Assembly: GCA_002786025.1 (NCBI GenBank)
Contig: NHNW01000048.1
Location: 186,001-250,000 of the forward strand
Direction of reading: 5' to 3'
From: Zasmidium citrigriseum
Lineage: Eukaryota > Ascomycota > Dothideomycetes > Mycosphaerellales > Mycosphaerellaceae
Length of the DNA: 64,000 bases
A program made the translations under genes and the position numbers. Below the pieces are notes generated by a model. It saw nothing but the letters and a program-made list of their open reading frames with translations, ran no database searches and was not told the DNA's origin. Shown here piece by piece: positions 2,578-56,369 of the stretch. Position 1 is the first letter of the stretch. Each line of letters starts with the position of its first letter.

Positions 2578-5329
2578 TTAACCCCTCAACCATCGAAACG
2601 GAGACCATGATTGCCGATTCTGATTATACTCTTCGCGGATGTTCAACAGCCACTGCGTATCAGCGAGTCCGAATACTGAAGTCAGCCGTTCTTCCTCGTC
2701 AAAGCCAATGCGTTTGGGAGGCTCCTTTGCTCCGACTTTCATCAACTCCGCCGCCACTTGCAAGTACTTCTGCCTTGTCGTAGGTGAGCAGCTCTTGTGC
2801 TCGGCGAAGAACTTGAGACAGAATTCCCACACAGAGCCCTCGGCCATTCGTCTCTTGTTGAGACTGGCCCCGTGGCTGATCAAGACTGAGATTATGCGGG
2901 GATCGAAGCCTTGACGATCTGGATCACGGACCCATGAAAGCCCCAGAATGTCCCCATACGAGCAGGCCTCTTGGTTTGGGGGCTGTAGATAGAGCAACGC
3001 GTCGCACAGGTACACGTCCAACCAGCTGGGCGATGGCGCTTGACTCTTCAGCCTTCTCTCCAGTGCAAATGGCAAGTTGAGCACAGCAAGTATTCTCGAT
3101 TCTTCTGGAAGCGAGTTGGCCCAGCCGTCGTGGGTATCTGCCAGAATAACTTGTTGGCGATCCAGTAGTTCCATCGGCAGAACACCGCCTTTTCGCTCCA
3201 CCTCTCTGGCATGGTGATAAAAGGACGGTATCAACCAGCTCAGAGTCTCCGCATCGCCAACGGAACTGGTGAGGTAATAATTCAGGTACCTCAATCCCAC
3301 TAGAGAGATCTGACACATGCAAGTGTCAAGGTCAAAGCTCTGCCCCGTCCTACTATCGAGAAGCGTTACCATGTCTGGCGTCGAGAGGAAATCCTTGACA
3401 GTACGATGCAAGAAAGATACCTTCCCGTTGCTGACCTCTAGAAGATCTCGACAACGGCCAAGAATCTGTTGACGGAGGCTCTCTTCCATAGCAACGCGGT
3501 CTTGACCGCCTACCTCCGAGTCCAGTGCCGTAGAGATGCGCACTGCCATGGGATCCTCTGGTTGAAGAACTGTGAAGCCGATAACCGGCACATAGTATGG
3601 AGCTTCGACGCACACCCGAAATATCTGCGCGGTCTCGCCTTGGTAAAAGTCGTCCAGTGTGTCGAACATGTGTTGGAAGTATGCTTCCAGGCCAGGAGGG
3701 ATACGACGCAACCTTTTCCGCAAAGTGTGTAAGTTGTCGTTGTTCGTCAGGCTCTTGAGAATCTCATTGATGACCAGATACACCCACAGGAAGACACCGT
3801 CTGCCTTGTCGGTGATCTCGCGAATCAGCTCACCGCATCGAGCGTCAACCGAGAGCATTCTCAGAAACCGTCGATCCTCCTGGAGTCGATTCTGGACGTA
3901 CAACGCTATGTCGTTGCGGGTGAGATCCTGCAAGATCAGCATCTGTCCACGGCTCTGCAACGAACTGAAGGCGAACTCGAACACATTCCACGGACGGCTC
4001 GAGACGCAAATCTTGATATTATCGAGAGCGGCCAGTGTGTTGATGTAGTTGATGATATCATCATGGTGGCCGTCATACTCGTCCAGGCCATCCACGAAGA
4101 AGCAGAACTTGACTTCTTTTCCACCGCTCTGCAAACGTGACTTGCTCACGCTCTTGATGATGTTCGATAACTCGCTGGGTTGCCATACCTCTCGCCTTGT
4201 AAAGTCCGGATCGAGGCAACGAGAGACTGATAGAGCTGCGTACCGATCGGAACAAATTTTGGGAAAGAGATCCGGACATGATCGGAAGATGTCGTAACAC
4301 AGAGACCGCATCAAGCCAGTCTGAGATCGCTGGAGACTTGTCCCGGAGTTCCAGAAGAAATGTCGTGACACGACGAGTTTTGCATCTCCTACCCACTCCT
4401 GCAATGCTGCATGTGTGCTTGGGTTCTCGAACAGGAACTTTAGCAATGTTGATTTGCCGGAGCCTGCTTTACCAGAAACCCAAAGGATCCCAGAGCTTGT
4501 CCGCAGCCACCTCAAGAAGTTCGTAGGTTGTTGGTCATCCAATATCCATTCGAACGTCTTTGCATGGGTATCGCTAATGGCATTCTCTCTGGCTCGTATT
4601 GCATCAAATTGCAGTGTTGAGACCACGTACTGAGTCTTTGCAACCGCCTGAGCTTCCGAATCAAATCGTGTGATCGTATCCAGGACTACTGTGGTGGGTG
4701 TTGACTGAGGATCTCGAACAGACGACAGTCGTATCAATTCGGCTTTAAACCCATCGAGTCGTCTAGTTATATTCGTCTCAAGGGCAGCATCCCGCTCACG
4801 AAGCTTCTCGACCATTGTGTAGACAGTAGATTGCCTTGCGTATGGCCACAAGAGTGTGAGTACATCAAATACCAACAGGATTCGAGGATGGCTCACCAAC
4901 GACTTTGACGAGCTGCAACGTCAAATTAACCTTTCTCGCCAATACCTGCTTCTGATATTCCTCCAACTGCTTGGTCCGCATCTCAATCTTGAAGGCGAGC
5001 TTGAGACTCTTCAGTCTGCTTGCATTGCCCTCGATCTTAAGTTCTCTCCAAAAGGCCAGAATCTCATCCGCCAACTTGCTACATTTCTGGCCCTCCAATA
5101 CCAGCTCATGGCCATCTCGTCGTAATTCGGCATCTTCTCCTTTCTTAGGCTTTGGAAGAGTCGAGGCTACTTGTCTGAATTGTTGCAGCTCGGCCTCGAA
5201 GCTCTGAACAGAATCGAGCGTTCCGCCAGATCGATACACCTTATGAGCGACGCCGAGGAGCTCAGCACCGAAGTCGACGAATTGGCAGATGGCTGTGGCG
5301 ATGGCCAGGCATGAGAAGGGGTCAAGCAT
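2578..5329 (-). CDS. NACHT-domain STAND NTPase (fungal NLR-like), two exons
   Basis: Exon 1 (5329 to about 4897) encodes a helical N-terminal domain beginning MLDPFSCLAIATAICQF, the kind found at the front of many fungal STAND proteins, with a basic/acidic coiled-coil at its end. Exon 2 (about 4834 to 2578) carries the NACHT NTPase: Walker A GKAGSGKST, Walker B-like FFVDGLDEYDG, and the later CVSSRPW block, then a helical C-terminal region with no WD40, ankyrin or TPR repeats. Family knowledge: these proteins oligomerise on ligand binding and can trigger incompatibility or cell death. The best intron (4835-4896, donor GTGAGC, branch ACTCAC, acceptor AAG) does not keep the frame, so either splicing differs or the gene is frameshifted. 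Confidence 0.75.
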
Positions 5330-26556: not shown

Positions 26557-27990
26557 TTAGTTGTCAACGCCGATGTGCACATTCTTCTCGCCGGGAGGGA
26601 TGATCTCGGCCTCCTTCTTTCCCTTCAGAGACGGCAGCTCCTTGACGGCGTCGGCGATGATGCCGAGGGCAGTCTTGATCTGGTCTTCGCTAATGACAAG
26701 CGGTGGTGCGAGACGGATGATGTTTTGGTGAGTGGGCTTGGCTAGCAGGCCCTTCTCCTTCATGAGCATGCACAGATCCCATGCACTGTGGCCGTTCGTC
26801 TTCGATTCGTCTATCACGATGGCGTTCAGCAGGCCCTTGCCGCGGATGAGGGTGATCATGGAATCCTTGGCCTGTATTTCGCGCAGGCCTTGGCGGAAGA
26901 CCTCGCCTAGTCGCTCAGCGCGTTGGGTGAGTTGCTCCTCTTCGACGATTTCGAGGGCTTTGATGGCGACGGCAGAGCCGAGTGGGTTGCCGCCGTATGT
27001 GCTGCCGTGGGTGCCAGGCTCGACCGTGAGCATGATCTCCTTCGAAGCCAGAACGCAAGACACTGGGTACATTCCACCGCTGATCGCCTTGCCGAGTAGA
27101 ACCATATCTGGCTTGATGCCGCTCCACTCGTGGCACAGCATACGACCAGTGCGTGCAATACCGGTCTGAATCTCGTCGCAAATCAAGAGGACGTTGTGCT
27201 TCGTGCAGAGCTCGCGGACCTTCTGTAGATAGCTCTCGTCTGGAACCACGATACCAGCCTCGCCCTGAATAGGCTCCACCAAGAACGCCGCAGTCTCCTT
27301 GCCATGCTTCTCGAACAGCTCCTCAACAGCCTGTGCGTCGCCAAATGGAATTGGCTTGCCGGTGGTGGGATTGCTCGAGCCGACGTTTGGCAGATATGGG
27401 CCGTAGTTATCTCTGCTCTCCGGGTCGGTAGACATGGTGATCGCGGCGAATGTCCTGCCGTGGAAGTTCTCTTGCACGCTGAAGACCCAGGCCTTGTCCT
27501 TTGGGATGCCCTTGACCTTGTATCCCCACTTCCTCGCAACCTTGACTGCAGTCTCCACTGCCTCGGCACCGGTGTTCATTGGCAGCACCATGTCGAAACC
27601 CATCATCTTGGTGATCTTCTCGGCGAACTTGGGAAAGACATCGTTGTAGAATGCGCGACTGGAGAGGGTGAGTCTGCTGGCCTGCTCTACAAGTGCCTGG
27701 ATGAGCTTGGGGTGGCAGTGGCCTTGGTTGACGGCGGAGTATGCGGAGAGGAAGTCGAGGTAGTGCTTGCCCTCTGGATCCCAGACTGAGCAACCCTCTG
27801 CCTTGGCGAAGACTATGGGGAGCGGGTGGTAGTTGTGTGCGGCGTGGGCGGCTTCAGCGGACATGGCCTGCTGCGACGAGGCGGCATGGTAGGTGGACGT
27901 CTCGCCGGCGGGAGTGAAGGAGGCAGCTTTGGCGTTGAGGGTGCCGTTTGCGTGGCCGTTGGTCTGCTGGTCGATGGCCATGGGTGCCAT
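26557..27990 (-). CDS. Ornithine aminotransferase (ornithine-oxo-acid transaminase)
   Basis: A 477-residue single-exon class-III PLP aminotransferase. Seen: the ornithine-aminotransferase entry YHPLPIVFAKAEG, SAYSAVNQGHCHPKL, the phosphate-binding NTGAEAVETAVK, the Asp that pairs with the PLP pyridine nitrogen (ICDEIQTG) and the Schiff-base lysine in LLGKAISGG at about residue 301. It converts ornithine and 2-oxoglutarate to glutamate semialdehyde and glutamate in arginine catabolism. Start at MAPMAID (27990). Fungal cytosolic forms resemble yeast Car2. It is divergent from a Zn2Cys6 factor. Confidence 0.93.
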   Translation of the reverse strand: MAPMAIDQQTNGHANGTLNAKAASFTPAGETSTYHAASSQQAMSAEAAHAAHNYHPLPIVFAKAEGCSVWDPEGKHYLDFLSAYSAVNQGHCHPKLIQALVEQASRLTLSSRAFYNDVFPKFAEKITKMMGFDMVLPMNTGAEAVETAVKVARKWGYKVKGIPKDKAWVFSVQENFHGRTFAAITMSTDPESRDNYGPYLPNVGSSNPTTGKPIPFGDAQAVEELFEKHGKETAAFLVEPIQGEAGIVVPDESYLQKVRELCTKHNVLLICDEIQTGIARTGRMLCHEWSGIKPDMVLLGKAISGGMYPVSCVLASKEIMLTVEPGTHGSTYGGNPLGSAVAIKALEIVEEEQLTQRAERLGEVFRQGLREIQAKDSMITLIRGKGLLNAIVIDESKTNGHSAWDLCMLMKEKGLLAKPTHQNIIRLAPPLVISEDQIKTALGIIADAVKELPSLKGKKEAEIIPPGEKNVHIGVDN

Positions 27991-28496
27991 GGTGGATATC
28001 GTGTCGTGGTAGGTTGCTGGTCGTAGGTCGTATGTTCCAGTGGTCGTTGTAGGTGAGTATGCAGAGCGAGAGTAGAAATCGGGGTTTGGAGGAATAAAGA
28101 GAAAGAAAGTGTGAGAGAAGCCGGTACTTAGACTTTTTGCATTCCAGGGATGACTGGCCTCAGCAAACTCGTCTTGTGCAGCGTTGGGCGTGTTTGTCGT
28201 CGTTCGCCCCACTGCCGTATCCCTATGCGCAGGTCGTGTCGGAAGATGAGGCTCAATCGTGTAGACCTGTCTTTAGCGGTCGAATTCACGACCCCTCGCT
28301 ATCATGTGCCCATTCCCGACCAGCGGGTAACGACGGCCGTAATCAATATTACCTAATGAAATGCTGCCGCGTGACTGGCCGCTCGGCTCAACAAAGGCTG
28401 GCACGGCAAAGCCCTCAGCGCCCGCCGCCGTGTCGTTGACGCCGCCAAGAAGACCAGGGTAACACATTCACTTACCTCGATCTAAGACATGTGAAG
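27991..28496. promoter_or_regulatory. Divergent promoter region, ornithine aminotransferase / Zn2Cys6 factor
   Basis: 506 bp between the two start codons. It holds the promoters of both genes; no specific operator is identified. Confidence 0.5.
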
Positions 28497-34428: not shown

Positions 34429-34437
34429 GCCGCCTGC
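34429..34437. repeat. Target-site duplication, left copy (GCCGCCTGC)
   Basis: Nine bases identical to 46504-46512 and lying immediately outside the terminal inverted repeats. Confidence 0.85.
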
Positions 34438-34456
34438 TAGCCTCAGAAGCTCAGAC
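34438..34456 (+). repeat. Terminal inverted repeat, left
   Basis: TAGCCTCAGAAGCTCAGAC; matches the reverse complement of 46485-46503 at 16 of 19 positions. Confidence 0.85.
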
Positions 34457-34515
34457 CATCTCTTCGCTTAGTCCACCAATCACAGCAAGCTGCGCGGACT
34501 ATCGCGAGATGGTCT
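34453..34515. repeat. Left subterminal hairpin
   Basis: Arms 34453-34474 and 34496-34515 share AGACCATCTC and AGTCC in inverted order around a 21-nt loop. It starts inside the terminal repeat and ends where RIP begins. Confidence 0.75.
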
Positions 34516-37500
34516 AAGGGCCTAAGTAATACGTCTAGTAATAATTCTAAGCCTTTACACGCGTTTTGTATATATATAATTCTAAGGCCTAGTTTTCGAC
34601 CTACGCGATAACAATATTATTAGACTCGATTTTGAAAAAAACGCTCTATAAGTTTGTGCTATTTACTCTAACAAACGAGCTCCCGTTATCTATTTCCCTA
34701 TACGTCGTTATACGCGACCTTTAAAAGGTTTCGCGTCTAATACTATTCCTCGTAGATTTTATATAGTAGCGACGCGAAGCCTTTTAGACGCCGCGTATAA
34801 TAACGAACGCTTACAAAAATAGTATTACTAGAGAGCCTAGACTAACGCGTATAAAGTTATAGGTAGCTTTACTAGTATACTAGCCTATAGTCGCTATACT
34901 AAATAGTTAAGTCTAGTAAATTCTAGTATTTTAGGCGGCGGCGACAATACGAATTCGACGTTCGACGATATAGTTTTCGATAGAGCGGATAGTCTAGCGT
35001 TCGTTTTATCGGATAATATATAGTCTAAAGAGGAGAGTATTAAAGAGATAGCGAATAACGGGTTAGTATATAGTACCTCGGATAGCGATTCGTATAGCTA
35101 GTCTAATATATCTAAGTACGCTAAGTATATACTAGACGCTCCTATCGGATAGGGATATAAGCTAGTAGATAGATAGGACCTTCTAGAGTTATTTAGTAGT
35201 TTCGACTCTATAGACTAGGTATACTATTATAAGCGTTATAACTAGGTCTAGTATCTAATAGAGGCACTACGAGGGCTAGACGTAACTATAGACGACTAGA
35301 CGTAGAAGGATACTATTAGATATAAGCTATACTCTCTACTATAGCCTAGGGATAGTAGAGGAGCTATTAGACCTAAATAGTTTAAGGAAGAGATAATAGC
35401 TAGGGCGAGCTTTAATTCTAGGCTCGGGTCTAAGGTAGTACTAGTACCCTCGATACTATCTAACGGTATCGATAGTATATAGCGATTCGTTCGGAGGAGG
35501 GTATTTAACGCTATATAGGAGGAAATATCTAGTATAGTACAAGAGGCTAAGAAGAACGTATCTATACGGAAGTCTAAGAAGGAAGAGAATACTCTTATCC
35601 GTCTAGGCTCTCGTATACTCTACCTATATATACTACGAGAGTCTTAGACGACTATTATTTAATAGCTACTCTTTAGTAAAGATAATCTAGTATAGTTAGT
35701 ATAGACGTCTATAGGTAAGAGTATAAGTTTCTAGGTATACTCGATATTATACGATCGAACGAGTATTATTATACTTCCTTTAAATTAGATTAGTAAAGAG
35801 TAGGAAGTAAGGATTAAAAGTATAGGTAGGCGGCTACTATTACTCGCGTCTAATCGCTAGAAAGACTTACTACTAGAAGACTAGAAGCGTATATACTAGG
35901 GCTAGTATAGTTATATTCTCCTTAGCCCTAAGATAGCGTCTTAGCCCTAGTTCCGTAGATTATAGTTAGATAGTCGCTTTAGACGTAGGCTAGGGCTAGT
36001 TATATACGATAAGCTATATCTAGTATACTAGTAGGGTATAGAGTCTCCGTTTCGGCTAGAGTACGCTATACTAAAGGTATTCTAGACTATACTCTCGCGT
36101 AGGGTAAAGTTCTATAAGTATACTACTACTCTTAAGCCTTAGACGCTAGGGAAGTATTATTAGGCTACTAGGTTTTAAGATAAGTATAAACTAGTAAAGG
36201 ACCCAATTAATCGTCTAGAGATCGCTATACGTTATACTACGGCGCTAACTAGTATACTAAATAACTACTAAGCCTTATTCTATCTAGTAGAAGGGTTAGT
36301 CGATAGGGCGACGACTAAGCTACTAGAGAAGACTATTATCTTTATTAATTCGAGGTCTAGTACGTATACTACGGCGAACGCGTTACGAAAGTTTATTTAG
36401 ACGAAATAGCTAGGGAGGTTTACTACGTCTAAAATATATCGTATAGTCTAGACCTATTATAGTAGGACTTAACGTTAGACGTAGAGAGCCGTTATACGGG
36501 AGTTTTAGAAGCTAGACTCCGCTATTCGTATCCTATTCGCTACGGAGGCGCTTAGTCTCGGGGTTAATCTACTAGATATTAAGCGTATTGTCTAGTTCCG
36601 TCTACCGACTTATATAATACTTCGTATAATTATATAACGGGTAGGTCGCGCTATACGGGACACGAAGACGTATAGCGAGGGAACGTTTACTATTATATAT
36701 AAGGTATAGTAGCTCGGTAATCGACCCGAGCTAGAGTAGGATACTAGATCTACGAGGCTTACTATATAGCGTATAGAAGCGCTAGACCTAATCGCGTATA
36801 GTAATAGTAAAGGCGTCGACGAGGTAGAACTATTTAGTAAAGCTTAGACGCCTCCGTCGAAGAAGCGAAAGAAGCCGCTATCTAATATAGAGCGTCGATA
36901 GCGTATAAATAGGGACTTATACGTATAGCTAAATCTTTCCGAGTCTAGTATAGATTATAGGCGGCGAACCTTATTAGCGTTTTTCGTAGAAGCGTCTAAC
37001 GAGGTACGACTACTATACTATAATCTATATATATTAGTAATTGCCTTAACCGAGACCGCTATACGAATAGCCGCAAGTTTACTATCGTCTAATACGGAAG
37101 AGCTACTAGTCGACCTATATATAGTAACTAGTTTAAAGAAATAATTACTAGTATAGGAAGCGTTAGAGGCGAAGCGTTTATATACCTATACTATATTTCC
37201 GCTAGTACCTAGTTATCTAGTACCGAATTAAGTCCTAGTATAGCTTATAAAACGGTATAGTAGCTTAGATCGCCCCGTAGGTAGTCTCGCCGCGGTTAAG
37301 AGACTACTCGAAGGTAACTATATTATTTTAGATAGGGAATATCTAAGAACGCTCTACTAGCGGCTAGGCGTATTCTAGATAGTAGTAGCCTCTAGACTTC
37401 CGAAAAAGCGATCTAGTCCTAGTTAGACTCTAGCTAAGGTTAGAGACCCCTCTATATAGGCGTCGGGTATTATAGCCTCCTCGTCTAATACGGCTACTAC

Positions 37501-40500
37501 GTCTAACGTAGCCCGTTAGATATTAATAGCCTCCCTAGATATACTAAAAGAGTCGTAGGCTCCTATATAGGATTCTAGTCCTATACGAGGTACTAATCTA
37601 TTAGAGTCGGTTACGGTAGTACTAACTACGCTATCTAGCTAGGCTAGCTCGAATAGTAGGCGGAAACGTAGGCGTCGTAGTCCTCTAAAAGAGATTTCGA
37701 ATAACGCTAGAGTATAGGATAGGAGCCTAGTTAAATAGGTGTAGCGAATAGTAGAATAAACTCCTACTCCGCCCCTTCGAAGTCTAGATTCTAGTACTAT
37801 TACTACGTCTAGTAGGCGTATAATACTATCGAGGAAACTACGCGAATAATAATAGTACGGCTACTATTTGTTATAACTAAAGAGCTAAGGCTAAGCCTCC
37901 TTACCTAGTCTAGTTTAGCGTATCTTAGTTATCCTCCTATTATACGTATTAATATTTACTACGCGTCTATATACGCTTACTTCTACTCGTCTACTCGCTA
38001 TTCTACCGCCTATCCTCTATACTATATCTAATAGCGACTACTCTACTCGCTACTCTAAGGCCTCGCGCTATAAATCGAATTAGAGTACTAGCGCCTTATA
38101 CGCGAGTCGAAACTAGTATAGAAATTTCCTCTTAAAGCGTAAGAAGGTAGACGCTATAGTATAGGAGATATAGAGGCTAGGTATAACATTTAAGGAGTTT
38201 ATTATACGGTTTATATCTAAAGAGAGGGGTACTAACTAGGCGGTATAAGGGAAGACTACGCGCGAGCGAGCCCGGATTCTAGCGGAAATTCTAGAAGAAG
38301 AGGGCGTTATTCGTCGTCTTAGACCTATTATTACTAATAGTAAGTTATAGTAAGCGTACGAACCTATAATTAAACGCGAGCTTAAGGCTATTAGGCGTAT
38401 TAAGGTAAGGGTTACGAATCTACTAGACTCGTAATACTAATAGACGTAGGAGTTCGGAAAATAGGACTCGACTAGATAGCCTAAGGACGTCTTCTATACC
38501 TAGTTATACTCGTAAGTAGTCTAGGCGGCACTAACGCTCTATCGATTTCTCTCTAGGCTAATTTAGACGCGCTCTAACTCCCGTCTACGTCGCTAGACTA
38601 TATTTCTAGTAGCCTACTTCGCTCGTATAATATCTATCTAAACTAGCTACTAACTTAATCGTATAATAGCGATATATCTTTAGAGTTAGGGTATTAAGCG
38701 CTATATTATCGCTATACTCGCTAGTATAGGAGTCTACTTATTCCCCTAGAGTATATACCGTTTAAACAAACGCCTTTATACTCTAGCGAGCTAGAACCTA
38801 CGTCTATTTAGATAAGATAAGAACTCGTATTTCTATTTCGATAATCTAAACTATATAGAGTAGGTATATAAAACGGGGTTCGCTAGTTAACCTAAATAGG
38901 TATACGTTACGTCTAGTAAAGTATTTAAGTCGATTAAGGTACTATACGGAGGGTTAACGGTCGATATATTATATAAAGAGGTACTACTACGGCCGTATAA
39001 CGTGTTTAGTATACTAGGTAATACGTATACGCTAATATAAGTCCGGATATCTAAGGGTATTATTACCTCCTATCTTACTAGACTATATAGTACCGACCTT
39101 AGATAGGCCTTCGGCGAGAATTAGTAGGACACGGACCTTAAATAGTCGTATATACTAGACTTCCCCGTTATACTAAATATCGATCGTCTCGAACCCTAGA
39201 AGACGATCTATACGACGCTATAGCTTATATTAGAGAATAAAGGGACTACTAAAGGCATAGGAAATATTATAGAAGATATTCTAGAGTATTAGTTTAATCT
39301 ACGAACGCTCTACGAAGAGGCTATTACGAGTAGAACGTCTAGTATAGAACTACTCGCGTTAGACGCTCTAGATACGATTATAGGAGATAGTATTTATTAT
39401 ACTCGCCGCTACCCCCGTTTTAAGTTTCCGAATAGCCTACCTATATACGACTCTACTAGGTTTATACGACTCGTATATAGCGATAATAAGACACTTATAA
39501 ACTTACGAATATAGAAGAAGGAATCCGAGGAGAATAATAGCCTATTCGATAAGGCTAGATAGGTCCTACCTATACTAGCTATCTTCTATCTTAAGATATA
39601 TCTACTATAGGTAATAGAGACTAATTTTAATAGGAATAAGGAGTCTAGAGGTCCTTTATACCTCCTCGTATATCGTAACATAATAGACTAAAAGATCTAT
39701 CTAACTATATAGGCCCTATTTAGCTATTAAGAGCGTCTAGTTTAGGATAGCTTCTATACCTAAGTAGTAGCCTTTATATACGATATTCTTAATTATCGGA
39801 ATAATCCCTCCCTCGAATACTAGGAGCGTATAGGAGCGAAGATTAGTAGTCTAGGTAAGGCTAGCGTACTACGTCTAGTTAATAAGATCTACGAGTAGGC
39901 CTTCTTACTAGACTATAGACGACTTAATCTAGACAAACTCTCTAAAGATACGAGGAAAGTAAACGGCCCGAATTCTTCTTAATCGAAGAAAAGGAAGCTA
40001 AGGAAGAAGAAGAAGGGGACGTCTAATAGCTAGCTAGTCCCTTAAGCTCTATCTAATAAGCCGCTAGATAAAGAGAAGCCTATTAAATATATAGGGTTAG
40101 AGGAACGAGTAAATTATATTAGATTTATCGAGATCGTCGAGATATACTATATACTCTACTATACGGTCTCCTATACTAATATTAAGCTCTTAAAGCTCGT
40201 TATCGACTAGTATATTCTAATCTTCTATACGCGATCGAACTATAACTATACTTTCGTTATACTATAGCTAAAGCGATTAGTTAATATAAAGGCTATAGAC
40301 GAACTATTATAGCGGGCTATATTAGTAAACGGATTAGTAAACTATTCTAGACGACTAGACGCCTAGTTTAAGATTAACCGGGTAAATAAATACTTAAACC
40401 TCTTTCTAAAGAATACTATTCGCGATCGCTAGAATAGAGCCTTCGGCGTAAAGGACTAGCTTAAAGAGTGTACCCTTCTAGCGTTATATACTAGAATAGT

Positions 40501-41000
40501 ACGAGAAAATCTTAAGCGGGCGTTTAGAGAATTTACTAATACTAGATATACTAAACGTTAGACTAAGGAAGAGATATATAAGGTAGCTATTATCTATAAG
40601 AAGGAGACCTTTAGGCGTCGTATAGTCGATTAGAATACTAGGCTTCCGTTCTATACGATAAATCTAATAGCCGTTAGTACGTTATATCTCTAAGGCGCTA
40701 GACTTAATAGCTTTAATTAGAATATAGTCCGCTATCGAGACGAGATCGTTATAGAGGATTAGCCTATTAAAGCCGTACTAGGCGAATTACTAGACCCCGT
40801 TTTAGACCTAAGGTTCTAACGATTTCCCGAGAATAAGCTCTTTCTAATCGAAGATAGTATAGTAGACCCTCTAGACGAAGAATTAGATACGGAATACGAG
40901 TCTAATATAAGTAGCGCTATAAATAGGGAAGAAGAAGATACCTAATAAACTAGTTTATTATCGGTAAATATATCGCTCGAGTTTATTAGACTAGACGTAG
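34500..41000 (+). pseudogene. RIP-inactivated RecQ-like helicase / DUF6589-like fusion ORF
   Basis: One frame (codons starting at positions equal to 2 modulo 3) reads through about 6.4 kb without needing an indel; it is broken only by TAG/TAA codons explicable as CAG, CAA or TGG hit by RIP, and it lacks ATG. Helicase landmarks: Walker A S-I-G-K-S at about 35,708-35,722, motif II Y-D-(E)-L at 36,005, then ATEALSLGVNL near 36,550 and the RecQ-type motif VI (Q)RVGRAIRD at 36,635-36,661. From about 38,100 to 40,950 the reading resembles fungal DUF6589 proteins. The N-terminal 350 codons are not recognised. Ends are approximate. A spacer of hydrophobic low-complexity reading at 37,860-38,060 may be an intron. 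Confidence 0.7.
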
Positions 41001-41079
41001 GCTAACTCTAAACCCGCTTAACGTATTATAAATAGAAAACAAAACTATTCTCGACTTTTAATACTACTAGACCTATCCT

Positions 41080-42430
41080 CCGAACTATTATATACCCGTA
41101 TCTACCTAGACGTATATCTAGAACTACTAGTCTAGTAGGAAATATATCTCCCCTACCTCGTCCTTAATATTATCGTCCTATTCCTTTAAACTACTCTCCT
41201 TCGCCTTATTCTCGAGCCTATTACTTAGCTTAAGTACCGTATCCTAGAGAGCCTACGCCTAACGCCTAGTAACTTACTATCTACTATTAAGCGGTCGGAA
41301 CTAGTACGGTATAACGATATAGCTATAGCGAACACCTATCTACGGACTAATTAGACTATTTATCGTTCCTAGCTATATATCGACTAGTACGTTATTTAGC
41401 GAATCGTCCGTAAAGGTATACGACTCTATAGCTAGGAGATCCTCGATTACTATACGATTTAGAGTACGGCCTCTAGACGCCTCGGTCGTAGCGCCTAGTA
41501 CCGTATATATACTACTAAAGCTAGTAACGAGACTAGATATACTCTAACTACTAGGAAAGTTCTTCTAAAGGGCTATCGTACTTCTAACCTACTTATTATC
41601 CGCCGCAAACTCGCTAGCCGTCGTATTACCTTCTCTAGACTTATTCTTCTTCCGCTTTAGCTTTATATAGGCGTATATCTAGTCGCCTAGACTATAGCTA
41701 TAATACTAGATTATAAACGAATAGCCTATATACGCTCTATCGAAAAGGAACTTAGATCGGAGTATTAGACTTATAACTAGCCGGTTCGTATCTTTATTGT
41801 CCGTATCGAAATCCTTATCTAGTATATCCCGCTAGCCTAGAATACTATCCGTAAAGTACTTCTTTATATATAGGTACCGTCTAAAAGGGCCCTTATTACT
41901 TAGACACTAATTATATCTATAAGGCGAATACTATAACGTTCCCTATATAAACGCCGCTAAAAGCGAACTAAGAATTATACTATTACTATATAGGTTTATA
42001 CGTAGACTCGTTACGCCTTAAATCTAGCGTATAATCCCCTTATAAGCTTCCTAGTTAACTAGATTTAGACTAAGAGACGTATTACCTAACTTTATAATAG
42101 TCTTAAACTTTAGAGAGACCCTACTATTCCGATAGGCGTTGTCTAGAAACTTAGTAAAATAGAGTACTAGACTATAATACTAATACTCGATTATCCGCTT
42201 TAGCTATAGGTATAGGTTAGTACGAGAGAGGTAGACGTCTAACTAGCCGAACTATTTATCCTAGAGCTAATTTATACGCTTTATATATTTGTCCTACGAC
42301 TAGGAGTAGTACTCTAGCTTAACGCCCTAGTCTTTAGGCTTCGGGGGTAGAGTAACTAGTCCCTTCTTATCCTTCTAACCGCTAGTCGAAGAAGTAGACG
42401 CTATACTATTATCTAAGTCGTACTCTATTT
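41080..42430 (-). pseudogene. RIP-inactivated gene of unknown function, paralogue 1
   Basis: On the minus strand one frame is open except for RIP-type stops. It aligns along its length with the frame at 43,930-45,290: shared blocks include RINQLQDKQFG / RIDQLQDNQFG, KYFTDSILG / KYFTNAILG, FLFDRAYIGY / FLFDRVYTNY, and a C-terminal RRQAQALQDTV-K-S / RRQVIALRDTV-K-S (with read-through of stops). I do not recognise the family. Its position inside the element suggests an accessory transposon protein. Boundaries are approximate. Confidence 0.5.
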
Positions 42431-42474
42431 TCTACGACTTAATTAGTATTAATTATACGTATTATACCGCTAAA

Positions 42475-42870
42475 TCTATATACTAAAGAGTAACTAGAGT
42501 AGTTAAAGATCGAGTCGAGTTAGTCGTTAATTAGAGAGCGTCTATAGCGAGTATAGCTAGTTCGAGTCGAGTTAGTCGTCGAAACTAGCGGGTAGCTATA
42601 GGTAGTATATATCGATACTAAGGAAGAGTTTAAGGTATTAGAATAGGTATAGGCGGCTAGAGAGCGTAATAAACGAAGAGGAGGAGGAGGTAGTAGTATT
42701 ATTAGAAAGAGAAAGAGTCTAGACGGAAGTAGTACTTTTAAATAGCGACTAGCGACGATATACGTAGTCTAAGGAGCGCGTAACCGCCCGAAATAACTAT
42801 TCGTAGCTACTAGACGAGGTTAGATACTTCCGAATTAGGTAGTCTACTAGTATATACGAGCTTCTAATTA
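42475..42870. repeat. Internal direct repeat, copy 1
   Basis: About 400 bp similar to 45330-45745, offset about 2.86 kb. Includes two copies of CGAGTCGAGTTAGTCG and the block TACTTCCGAATTAGGTAGTC. Confidence 0.8.
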
Positions 42871-43929
42871 ACGTTCGCTAGTATTAGTTACTTAGACTTC
42901 CGTAAATACCCGGGCCTAGTATATAGTATTTTCGGGAATAAGGAAGGCCTAACTAAGGATTTAGATAGCGGTAGCTTACGTATAAAGAGTATACGGATCC
43001 TAGACTCTACTAGTCTTTAGCTACTCGAGAGACTTCTATTTCCCTTACTATACTTAATAATCCTAGCTTTTAGAACCCTAGGATTACGAGAGAGTATAGC
43101 GAATGTTATTCTAGGAAGGAAGAAGGCCTAACTATAGTATTATACTATAAATCTATACGTCTAACTCGGCCCTATACCCTAGAATCCTCCTATAATTAGC
43201 TCCCTAAGAAACCTATATTCCCCTTAGCTAGACTAAGTAGTCCCGAGCTTTAGAGGCTTAGTTATACTAGAAAGTATAGTAAATAGCTAAGCTAGGGTGC
43301 TAGAGATAGGGAGTAAAGTACTCTAAGGCCTAGTCGTTCGTATAAGAGCTCGAGGATTCCTATACCTCCCTAGCGCTTAACTATTCGATAAACGTATTGC
43401 CCCGAACTTAGACCTCGTAGAACTAGCTACTATAGGCTTAACTATACTTCGAAGTACGAGACCTCTTAATTATAGGAGTCCGAGAACTAAGGATAGATAC
43501 TAGAGTCCCTAGACTACTATATAGAGGCTACCTAGCTCTTATCTCTACTAATCCCTAACTCTCTAATAAATATTATTTTTCCGTTCCCTAGACGATCCTA
43601 TTAGGAATCTAAGAATCGAACTATAATCCCGGGGCTCTAAGATATAAGACCCTTAGCCTAAGAGGCTAAAGACCTATACTTACTCTCCTCTCTCTAACTA
43701 TAATTCTAGACGATCGAATAAACTTAGCTAACTATCCTAAAAGGCTAAACTTGCTCTAAATACGACCCTAATCCGACGAGTACGGTAGATAGGGGTTATA
43801 AAGTATAATAAGTAACGCTTTTTATTTATAGTAGGTATCTCGTATAATTTAATTAGAAACGAAGCTAGCTATCTCTAAACCTACTCTATATATATTTAAT
43901 ATTCCCTTATATAAAGGAAACTAGTCTAT

Positions 43930-45290
43930 ACTCCGAATCCGTCCTAGATACTATCTTAGTCCTACTAGCCTCTAGACTACCGTCTAGACCTACGACTTCT
44001 TACGTATATACGTATCCTCTACCCTACGATTATAATCCTTATTCTACTCCCTTAGACTAACCTAACTAGCCTCGGTAGTAAGCCTCTAACTTATCTTAAA
44101 TACCGTATCCCTTAGAGCAATTACCTAACGCCTAGCGACTTACTAGCTAGTATTAGTCTTACGGAAAGCGTAAGGAATAACTAGATAGCTATCGCGAACT
44201 ATCGCTAGACGACTAGTTAGAGCGATCGTAGTTCCTATATATATATCCGTAGGTACGAACTTATCGCTATTATACGTAAACTTAAACGTCTTAGACGCTA
44301 GGAGGTTCTAGATAGTAATAGTATCGAGGACACGGCTATACGACTATATAGCCTTAGCTAGACTCGCTATAGATACGCGGTTAGCCTTAGCCGTCTAACT
44401 ATATATACTCTATCGTTTAGGCTAGCGCTCGCGTAGGCTTATCGAATACCCGATACGCTAATTATCGCCGCTAGACGTCTCGGCGGCCTTCGTACCTCGA
44501 CTAGACTTAGTCTCTCTCGCTCTAGATTTCTTAAGGACTAGTCTCTTATTAGCTAGAGAGTAGCTATTATACTTACTATCGATTAGATAGTTCGTATATA
44601 CCCTATCGAATAGGAACGACTTTAGACTCTTAGAATCTATAACTAGGTCGGTCTCTTTATTATTAGACGAGAAGTCGCTATTAAATACGAACTCCTACTA
44701 CCCGAGAATAGCGTTCGTAAAGTACTTCCTTATACGCTAGTATCTCTTAAATAGACCCTCCTCGTCGTTATAATTATTATATACTAGTAGGCACTCTAAC
44801 GCCCTACGTATAAAACTCGCTATAACGTAACCTAGAACTCTAGTATTAGAGTATAGCCTTAGAACTATCCTCTCGTTACTAATAAACCGCCGTATACGCT
44901 TAGCGTACTTAGGCTAGTCGACTAGATCTAGACGCTAGTCGTCTTTAGTCTATTTTATAATAGACCTAAACTACGAAAAGACCTTACTATACTTCTAAGT
45001 AGACTAGATAAACCGACCGAAATAGATAACTAGACTATTATACTAGTTTATAAACATATTCTATATCTAGGTATATAAGTTATTATAATATAGTAGGACT
45101 GTAGCCCGACCGAACTAGTTATCCTAGAGCTAGTCTATACGCCGCTTATACGACACCTAAGGTCTAGAGAAGGTATCTAGCTTCTTACCCTAACTATCTA
45201 GCTTCTAGCTAGGTTAAAGCTCGCGACTATTTCCGCTAGGGTATAAAGAAGACGCTATACTTTAGTCTAACGGTTTAAGGATCTTCTACG
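43930..45290 (-). pseudogene. RIP-inactivated gene of unknown function, paralogue 2
   Basis: Minus-strand frame open through about 430 codons apart from TAG/TAA stops of RIP type. It matches paralogue 1 in order and spacing and also carries a Lys/Arg-rich stretch after the FLFDR block. No catalytic motif is recognised. Together with its flanking repeat it forms the second of two tandem modules filling the right half of the element. Boundaries are approximate. Confidence 0.5.
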
Positions 45291-45329
45291 AAACAATTAG
45301 CGCCTATTATATAGAGAGTACTATCTAAG

Positions 45330-45745
45330 ATATATACTAAAGAGTAATATTAGAGAGTAAGTATCGACTCGAGTTAGTCGTTAATATAGGCGCGCTTATA
45401 GCGTCTATAGCGAGTATAGCTAGTTCGAGTCGAGTTAGTCGTCGAAACTAGCGGGCAGCTCTAGGTAGTAAGTATTAATACGGAGGAAGAGATTAAAGTA
45501 TCGGAATAAGTATAGGAAGGTAGATAGCTAGTAAGAGAAAAGGAGGTAGGTAGTAGTAGTATTATTAATAGAAGAAAGAGTCTAGACAAGATTAGTCCTT
45601 TTAAGAGGCGTCTAACTACGATATACGTAGTCTAGTATATACGACAACCTTATATAACGCCCGAATAAGGTATTCGTAGCTACTAGATAAGGTTAGATAC
45701 TTCCGAATTAGGTAGTCCCCTAGTATATACGAGCTTCTAACGACT
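45330..45745. repeat. Internal direct repeat, copy 2
   Basis: Matches 42475-42870, again with two CGAGTCGAGTTAGTCG motifs about 70 bp apart. Confidence 0.8.
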
Positions 45746-46424
45746 CTTAGACCTAGCTTTAGTCGACTCCCTTCCGTTAATACCTAGGCCTAGTATATAG
45801 AAGCTCTAGGAATAATTGTAGTATAAGTAAGGTACTATTAGCTCTAGCTCTACGTCTAACTCTAACTCGATACCTATATAATCCCTAAGCTAGGCTATCT
45901 ATTAGACCTAGCTTCCCTAATACTAGACCCTCTCGACCCGAGTTTTAGACGCCTAGACCTATACTAAAGTATAGTTTACTATAAGACTAGGGTAGACGAG
46001 AGTATAGATAAAGTATATAGATACCCTACTCTATATATAGAGAGCTATCGATTCCTAGACTAGCCTAGTCCTAGGCTACTCGATAAACTACTTCTCCTTC
46101 CCCTATACCCTAGCTACCTATAGTCTAAGAGTATAGAAATACCCTAGAATATACCTAATCGAGATACTAGGAGTACTAGAACCTAGTTAGAGTACTATAG
46201 TCCCTAGTCCTACGTTTAAGAAGCCCTCCTCCTCTAGACTAGCTAGACCCCTAGCTATTTAATAAACTCTTATTTTCCTAGTCCTATACCCTACCTACTA
46301 TAAATCTAATACCTTAGTCGTTATCCCTAAGTATTATACTACCTTATTATATATATTTCATCGAAAAAGAGATGTGGTTAAAAACCGGCCTTAGAATTAT
46401 CTCCCAGACTGTCGACTAGGCCCT

Positions 46425-46489
46425 CAGACTGCCTGCGGCAACTTTCCTAATCGGGCATAGTCAAAAAAAGTTGCCAAGCAGGAAGTCTG
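46425..46489. repeat. Right subterminal hairpin
   Basis: Arms 46425-46445 and 46467-46489 are inverted copies (CAGACT-CCTGC-GGCAACTTT pattern) around a 21-nt loop; the outer arm overlaps the terminal repeat. Confidence 0.8.
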
Positions 46490-46503
46490 TGCACCTGAGG
46501 CTA
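46485..46503 (-). repeat. Terminal inverted repeat, right
   Basis: Reverse complement reads TAGCCTCAGGTGCACAGAC, pairing with 34438-34456. Confidence 0.85.
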
Positions 46504-46512
46504 GCCGCCTGC
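46504..46512. repeat. Target-site duplication, right copy (GCCGCCTGC)
   Basis: Identical to 34429-34437. Confidence 0.85.
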
Positions 46513-54975: not shown

Positions 54976-55199
54976 TTTCGAATCTTCGTCCTGTGAGCCC
55001 GAATTTGATGTTGATGATCAGGAAGACTCAAACGAGCCCTTGCATATATATCAATGATTCATCACGTGCTTCCAAGTGGGTCTGAAACCGCAGGGATGCC
55101 AGCCAATCGGAAAGCTCTTGAAACTTTCACTTCACCTGCGACTTCCTCAACCACAAAGTCTCCGAGAAAGGTTGCGAGCACAACACGACAAGCGCCACC
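54976..55199. promoter_or_regulatory. Bidirectional promoter region, aldo-keto reductase / MRI1
   Basis: 224 bp between divergent start codons. A TATATAT stretch near 55,045 could serve either gene. Confidence 0.5.
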
Positions 55200-56369
55200 A
55201 TGGTGCTCGAAGCAATCCGATACAAGCCTGGAAGCTTGCAGATCCTCAATCAGCTGAAACTTCCTCATCAAGAAGAATATGACGAAATCCGAACTGCCGA
55301 AGATGGCTGGCATGCGATCAAAGACATGCGGACTCGAGGAGCTCCGGCCATTGCGATCGTCGCTGCGCTTTCACTAGCGGTAGAATTGACGAACAACAAA
55401 ACCTCCGAAAAGGCAGAGGAAGTGGCCGCTTTCATCATCGAGAAGCTGGACTATCTTGTCACGAGCAGACCGACCGCCGTCAATCTTGCCGATGCTGCAG
55501 GAAAGCTGAAGAAGATTGTGGAGTCAGCTGCGAGCGTCAATGGCAATGATGGATCGGCGGTCTCGAAGGCGTACTGCGATGCTGCAGCTCAAATGTTGAT
55601 TGCCGATGTAGCCGACAACGAGGGCATCGGCAAATATGGAGCAGAATGGATTTCGAAGGCAGCAGGTGGTGGAAAGGTCAGCGTCCTCACTCACTGCAAC
55701 ACTGGGTCGCTCGCAACAGCTGGCTACGGAACTGCACTGGGCGTCATTCGCTCTCTGCATGCCAATGGATCGCTCCAGCATGCTTTCTGCACCGAGACCA
55801 GACCCTACAATCAAGGCTCACGGCTGACTGCCTTTGAGCTCGTCCATGACAAGATCCCCGCCACTCTCATCACAGACTCAATGGCATCCGCACTACTCAG
55901 ACTCAAAGGTCCGTCAGAGCGCATCGGAGCCATCGTAGTGGGTGCCGACCGAGTTGCTGCCAACGGAGACACTGCCAACAAGATCGGAACCTACCAACTC
56001 GCCATCACAGCCAAATACCATGGCGTCAAATTCCTCGTCGCCGCTCCCAGGACGACCATCGATCTGAAGACCAAGTCGGGTGCTGACATCGTCATCGAAG
56101 AGCGGCCAGGCAAGGAGATGACGATGTTGAAAGGTCCTCGCTTTGATGGCGTCGACTTGGTTCTGAGTCAAGTAGAGACTATCAGCATCGCAGCGAAGGG
56201 CATCGATGTGTGGAATCCTTCTTTTGATGTCACCCCAGCGGAGTTGATCGACGGCATCATTACTGAGATTGGGGTTTTCGAGAAGGGTGCGAACGGTGCG
56301 TTTGACCTCACAGCGGCGATGGAGGCGCACAATGAGAGCGTGAAGCTGAAGACTGTGGGAGGTCTCTAA
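55200..56369 (+). CDS. MRI1: Methylthioribose-1-phosphate isomerase
   Basis: A 389-residue single-exon protein. Signature blocks: [37 protein letters not shown] (substrate phosphate site), [21 protein letters not shown] with catalytic Cys-166, [15 protein letters not shown], and [21 protein letters not shown] with catalytic Asp-250. It isomerises 5-methylthioribose-1-phosphate to the ribulose form in the methionine salvage pathway. The length is normal and no residue is missing. The fold is related to eIF2B subunits, but the catalytic pair marks the isomerase. Confidence 0.95.

Follow-up and report, generated by a model that had tools for sequence, protein, structure and literature searches.

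A 64,000-nucleotide stretch of the Zasmidium citrigriseum genome (contig NHNW01000048.1, positions 186,001 to 250,000; this whole stretch is the window below, and positions refer to it) contains a 12,066-bp element with exact ends, a broken frame encoding a helicase and a DUF6589 region, and two broken accessory frames. Of the stop-to-stop frames with 100 aa or more, a single one (107 aa) is wholly contained in the element, and a second begins in its last 43 bp and extends outside, in agreement with an earlier note on the window alone that had found no usable open reading frames here. The 19-bp termini, TAGCCTCAGAAGCTCAGAC and TAGCCTCAGGTGCACAGAC, agree as inverted repeats at 16 of 19 positions and lie immediately inside two copies of the 9-mer GCCGCCTGC, which occurs in the window, searched on both strands, only at 34429 and 46504. 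With equal base frequencies, an inverted repeat of at least 16/19 directly inside an exact 9-bp repeat is expected by chance 0.0008 times per window, and among the 12,317 pairs of repeated 9-mers in the window (at least 60 bp apart) that of the element alone exceeds 13/19. The earlier note had described such inverted repeats at these positions as the ends of a complete DNA transposon; positions and agreement were reproduced, and both the exact ends and the perfect 9-bp duplication recur in sibling copies, confirming a complete DNA transposon.

Other copies of the element ends, which the note had named as a check, were found in the genome assembly (44,446,153 bases in 148 contigs; copy numbers are lower bounds). 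The left outer 200 bp matched at 10 places and the right outer 200 bp at 11, the window included, and from these matches and the terminus pattern 13 elements were resolved; family copies with ends lying elsewhere, which the note had considered damaging to its proposal, were not seen among the 13. All seven elements with both ends on one contig are flanked by a perfect 9-bp duplication, and for the six elements split over two contigs each left end fits exactly one of the six right ends, on another contig, by 9 bp. The 9-mers differ among all 13 elements, and the insertion sites share no strong motif, only weak trends toward C at the ninth base (9/13) and A at the fifth (8/13). Genome-wide, the terminus pattern has 24 exact matches, all within 12 of the 13 elements, and the reversed pattern has none; the thirteenth element, on contig C83, has mutated ends that fall outside the exact matches. 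Contig overlaps were rejected as support for pairing the split elements: C76 has 628 bp identical to C134 and also to C91, and the head of C146 matches C91, C134 and C76 alike. A weak left-end match (85% over 55 bp) was also observed at C63:374698-374750, without a resolved element.

These dispersed copies bear on the idea that the locus is a segmental or subtelomeric repeat of a RecQ-type helicase and not a transposon. Low-GC fungal subtelomeric RecQ repeats do exist and share with our element the RecQ-type helicase and low GC, and they are described as subtelomeric genes with, in the excerpts of PMC4522978, no mention of terminal repeats with duplications. Copies with inverted repeats and differing 9-bp duplications contradict this idea, as do the one-kb flanks of the seven large copies (n = 14), which are ordinary DNA lacking the mutation pattern of the interior described below, and we consider a subtelomeric repeat scarcely credible.

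Seven large elements share the same ends: the window copy, two on C67 (12,066 and 12,062 bp) and four split copies (C91/C146, C134/C76, C74/C85 and C72/C54). Over the stretches compared, identity among copies c1, c2, c3, c5 and part of c4 is 95-97%, and C74/C85 and C72/C54 form a second subfamily, with a protein identity of 56-65%. The same ends are found on two short elements, one of 757 bp on C138 and one of 756 bp on C83. A further, independent family (family 3) with related ends comprises four copies, on C72 (9,051 bp), C57, C68/C92 and C123/C122; its protein is 33-38% identical over the matched parts of the C72 copy, and 9-bp duplications flank the unsplit C72 and C57 copies, with two more paired across contigs. 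Within copy c4 (C146:4010-25437), about 21 kb between two parts of the transposase frame represents a nested insertion. The transposase-frame parts of copy c7, a member of subfamily 2 (C72:1286435-1293169 and 1293909-1300342) lie about 6-7 kb apart, twice, and these gaps are probably further nested insertions.

The long frame of the element stands out among the plus-strand frames by its 139 stops, compared with 244 and 207 in the other two. RecQ chains of the PDB matched its residues 245-588, and WRN chains mostly matched residues 249-379 only. The helicase and DUF6589 share one read-through frame in copies c1, c2, c3 and the C76 copy (four of the seven large copies, the others being interrupted), and in the C72 copy of family 3 they occupy one 1,998-codon frame. 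The earlier note had taken the helicase for cargo, which does not hold, the helicase being part of the same frame of about 2,030 codons as the DUF6589 region. DUF6589 itself would presumably be the catalytic part of the transposase.

A Mutator-like element (MULE) that had captured a helicase as cargo was also considered. MULEs commonly make 9-bp duplications, and both this length and the large size of the element would suit one. Our Pfam scan covered the three plus-strand frames of 34900-41000, two of the three minus-strand frames of 40900-46400 and the accessory frames, a subset of all frames in which repeat-induced point mutation (RIP) lowers sensitivity. Within that scope, neither a MULE domain (PF10551, named in excerpts of PMC8290104) nor another named transposase domain was detected, and the single frame in four of seven large copies and in family 3 argues that the helicase is no occasional passenger, making a MULE very improbable.

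DUF6589 was detected in at least 47 listed places in the genome, every one of them interrupted in frame by TAG or TAA and by no other stop. For the protein of the window element (23 of 67 candidates scored), stops likewise occur in each of the 33 places listed; an intact copy may exist beyond these lists. Several further DUF6589 lineages, beyond the families described here and all stop-bearing, are among the places listed; the genome once housed a diverse set of DUF6589 elements. Searches of a set of 5.8 billion proteins, in which scoring was confined each time to the 8,000 candidates with the most words in common with the query, gave no match at E <= 0.001 with either the full read-through frame or a five-row DUF6589 alignment (the window and four of 20 DUF6589 loci). 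RIP-changed words, and perhaps a small number of fungal proteins in the set, likely explain the missing homologues, which are not evidence of absence.

Several known groups were compared with the element. The AcademH lineage of the Academ superfamily, reportedly defined by Kojima in 2020, is characterized by terminal inverted repeats and an Academ-type DDD/E core, and lacks the XPG nuclease of AcademX. hAT elements make duplications of 5-8 bp, and the mark of Starships is a tyrosine-recombinase captain. The 9-bp duplication does not fit hAT, which the earlier note had set aside on size, duplication and helicase taken together; the frames scanned by Pfam, at the sensitivity lowered by RIP, contained no captain domain, no nuclease match (XPG included) and no KDZ or Zisupton domain, and the 12-kb size together with the 9-bp duplications also speaks against a Starship. 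KDZ and Zisupton elements are DNA transposons of fungi too, with Zisupton duplications of 8 bp (PMC12730594). AcademH duplications measure 9 or 10 bp and those of AcademX, in the same superfamily, 3 or 4 bp, a difference tied to the helicase versus the nuclease (PMC10045372). The element resembles AcademH in its helicase, 9-bp duplication and terminal inverted repeats, which bears out the note's choice of the helicase-encoding Academ lineage as the closest known type.

From the observed ends, duplications, copies, RIP-type mutation, conserved pairing within the ends and helicase and DUF6589 similarity, we conclude that this is very likely a complete but dead AcademH-type DNA transposon. Membership in AcademH is strong but not proven by sequence, and we hold it with high but not full confidence. 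Weighing against it, six of the 13 elements were paired by the 9-mer itself, making their duplications weaker evidence than those of the other seven, on which the argument chiefly stands; a PDB sequence search with the DUF6589 alignment returned no match, whether to a DDD/E fold or otherwise; DUF6589 was not found in the literature searched; and its at least 47 places here contrast with AcademH elements being called low-copy in Ascomycota, Basidiomycota and Mucoromycota (PMC10799480). The silence of the literature on DUF6589 would also suit a separate helicase-transposon lineage, a new superfamily with RecQ helicase and DUF6589 whose 9-bp duplications arose by coincidence, as would the lack of a tie to the Academ core. 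Features that may set the element apart are its death by RIP, two paralogous accessory frames and conserved terminal hairpins (below); the paired frames and hairpins go unmentioned in the AcademH excerpts consulted, which would likewise suit a separate lineage. A helicase with 9-10-bp duplications is, however, what is reported for AcademH, also in fungi (PMC10045372, PMC10799480), so that we regard a new superfamily as improbable. As an AcademH-type transposon the element is of a known kind, and it documents AcademH-like elements in a genome strongly marked by RIP; exact ends, siblings, short derivatives and a second related family make a comparative study of end structure possible. Three features merit further attention: the hairpins conserved at the ends, the pair of accessory frames and the sharp edge of RIP.

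Table 1. Features of the element and its boundaries, in window positions.
Feature	Positions	Strand	Evidence or description
Whole element, 12,066 bp	34438..46503	+	ends shared with other copies
Left 9-bp target-site duplication copy, GCCGCCTGC	34429..34437		
Right 9-bp target-site duplication copy, GCCGCCTGC	46504..46512		
Left terminal inverted repeat, TAGCCTCAGAAGCTCAGAC, 19 bp	34438..34456	+	
Right terminal inverted repeat, TAGCCTCAGGTGCACAGAC, 19 bp	46485..46503	-	16/19 against left
Left terminal hairpin, imperfect inverted repeat	34453..34515	+	folding; pair changes; background comparison
Right terminal hairpin, imperfect inverted repeat	46425..46489	-	folding; pair changes; background comparison
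RIP-type mutated interior (approximate limits)	34513..46424		nearly devoid of CpA and TpG; TpA enriched to about 1.9 times expectation; GC fraction about 0.38
Broken helicase-transposase frame	34901..40999	+	139 stops (TAG/TAA) in 2,033 codons read; window copy free of frameshifts
RecQ-type SF2 helicase part	35633..36664	+	PF00271 E 7e-11 at 36320-36658; best PDB chain RecQ, E 8e-06
DUF6589 region, presumed transposase part	39173..40528	+	PF20231 E 9e-14
Broken accessory frame 1	41040..42380	-	41 stops in 447 codons read; tail to tail with helicase-transposase frame
Duplicated non-coding stretch, copy 1	42477..42958		gapless pieces 73-90% against 45331-45832, spacing 2,854-2,874 bp
Broken accessory frame 2	43902..45270	-	37 stops in 456 codons read; 38% identity with frame 1
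Duplicated non-coding stretch, copy 2	45331..45832		

The mutation pattern inside the element points to RIP as its agent. Observed-to-expected dinucleotide ratios are 0.04 for CA, 0.03 for TG and 1.90 for TA; the GC fraction of about 0.38 compares with 0.49-0.59 per kb elsewhere in the window; and transitions make up 93-100% of the pairwise differences among five copies (one partial). Mutation of the copies by RIP would be the reason why their frames are broken and no usable open reading frame is left, an explanation that the earlier note did not offer. Cytosine-methyltransferase matches were found in two long stop-free frames, on C71 (1,240 codons) and C66 (2,352 codons), and at a third locus, on C57, in two pieces, one with a TAA; going by sequence similarity, these frames are compatible with a RIP-capable host and do not imply the identity of RID or Dim-2. 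Comparison of copies c1, c2, c3 and c5, leaving out c4, which is partial, and both copies of subfamily 2, showed that 336 of 387 interior changes in CpG context occur in a single copy, indicating that much RIP postdates the separation of the copies. On the other hand, 202 of the 370 residual interior CA/TG sites counted over the four copies recur in one or more of the others, which weighs against fully separate RIP and suggests either unequal exposure of sites or some RIP inherited by the copies in common.

At the borders of the element, RIP rises over a short distance. When the seven large copies are pooled, the ratio TpA/(TpA+CpA+TpG) goes from 0.05-0.16 in the flanks to 0.14-0.29 within the first 75 bp of the element, then to 0.54-0.83 at 75-150 bp and 0.74-0.99 at 150-250 bp, and stands at 0.95-1.00 between 250 bp and 1 kb. 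Single copies vary, the left end of c5 being spared past 100 bp, and the C72 copy of family 3 has a similar profile and is less RIPed. In copies surrounded by unique DNA, RIP thus measured fades over the outermost 75-150 bp or so (34438-34587 and 46354-46503 in the window copy), unlike in the one copy within RIPed DNA. Of the two short sister copies, that on C138 is surrounded by ordinary DNA and its ends are spared (0.36 and 0.31), and that on C83, the copy within RIPed DNA, has RIPed ends (0.71 and 1.00). These profiles are most simply explained if RIP requires homology to either side and weakens toward the border of a repeat. Sparing of the ends by selection for transposition was considered and is disfavoured by the large share of RIP that followed separation and by the RIPed ends of C83 (one copy); the similar length of the hairpin block and the spared block may be a coincidence. 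Excerpts of the literature searched, including PMC12543289, PMC4858203, PMC7296669, PMC6710886 and PMC10787394, held no statement on RIP weakening at repeat edges, which does not imply that it is unreported. The copies offer a natural measure of the reach of RIP, with about 75 bp spared and full strength by about 150-250 bp in the seven pooled copies, for which a copy inside RIPed DNA serves as a control.

The outermost approximately 80 bp of each end fold as a hairpin of about 65 bp, with z scores against single-base shuffles of -1.3 to -5.8 on the left, where the family 3 end folds weakly (z -1.3), and -2.2 to -5.5 on the right. Among 608 pieces of 85 nt from the window outside the element, 24 were as stable as the left end and one as the right, and 2 and 7 reached the inverted-repeat scores of the left and right ends, respectively. 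When ends were aligned, 91.1% of the pair cells of the right ends (n = 8) and 91.2% of those of the left (n = 9) held standard pairs, with four and eight pairs, respectively, changed on both sides; controls with slid structures gave 26-49% standard cells and at most three double-changed pairs. These rows are few and related, having been chosen from the ends in hand with near-identical ones dropped, and the tested structures came from folds of the same sequences and are favoured over the slid controls. Double changes from C-G to T-A were given no weight as support, as RIP acting on a palindrome can alter both arms alike. Family 3 contains double changes by transversion, in columns 34-62 and 35-61 on the right and 35-61 and 37-59 on the left, and since RIP cannot make transversions, these four pairs carry support for the hairpins. 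A measure of further pair types did not exceed shuffles, 129 and 150 of 500 of which reached it. From these alignments, pairing in the hairpins appears to have been kept by selection, a case that is good but not final.

The conserved hairpins offer a testable idea of why such transposases carry a helicase. A helicase-fused transposase might act on folded ends, the helicase opening the termini and the protein recognizing a DNA hairpin at each end rather than a plain double-stranded repeat. A hint of this is that, between families, the arms keep pairing through double changes, transversions included, while their sequence changes; we nevertheless regard action on folded ends as rather unlikely.

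The two accessory frames represent a duplication of one frame together with its upstream non-coding stretch, at a spacing of about 2.86 kb. No Pfam family matched them; a PDB sequence search with their alignment returned only a ribosomal protein at E 0.87, a chance match; and a structure of frame 2 predicted from a two-row alignment had a mean pLDDT (predicted local distance difference test score) of 29 and was useless. Accessory frames were detected at 15 or more genome places listed, including the subfamily 1 copies, being in two pieces in the copies at C67:333523 and on C146. They also occur close to the right termini of the subfamily 2 elements, on C54 and C85, and on C32 they adjoin a related transposase piece; among the matches listed, none falls in family 3. 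Our best guess is that the accessory proteins acted as an element-specific helper in end binding or in the regulation of transposition.

In the mechanism we propose, the large protein with RecQ-type helicase and DUF6589 would recognize ends of about 80 bp, each made of the 19-bp inverted repeat and the hairpin, and its helicase would open them. The element would have moved as DNA and been joined across 9-bp staggered cuts, with host fill-in giving the duplication. Its spread would have produced both 12-kb copies and short derivatives without room for its genes, the latter presumably moved in trans, before the host mutated the copies by RIP and broke their frames.

The surroundings of the element, judged by eye, are those of an ordinary region rich in genes. 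Neighbouring genes, named from appearance only, include an ornithine aminotransferase-like gene at 26557-28272 (minus strand), a methylthioribose-1-phosphate isomerase-like gene at 55122-56369 (plus strand) and a NACHT-like gene at 2578-4920 (minus strand).

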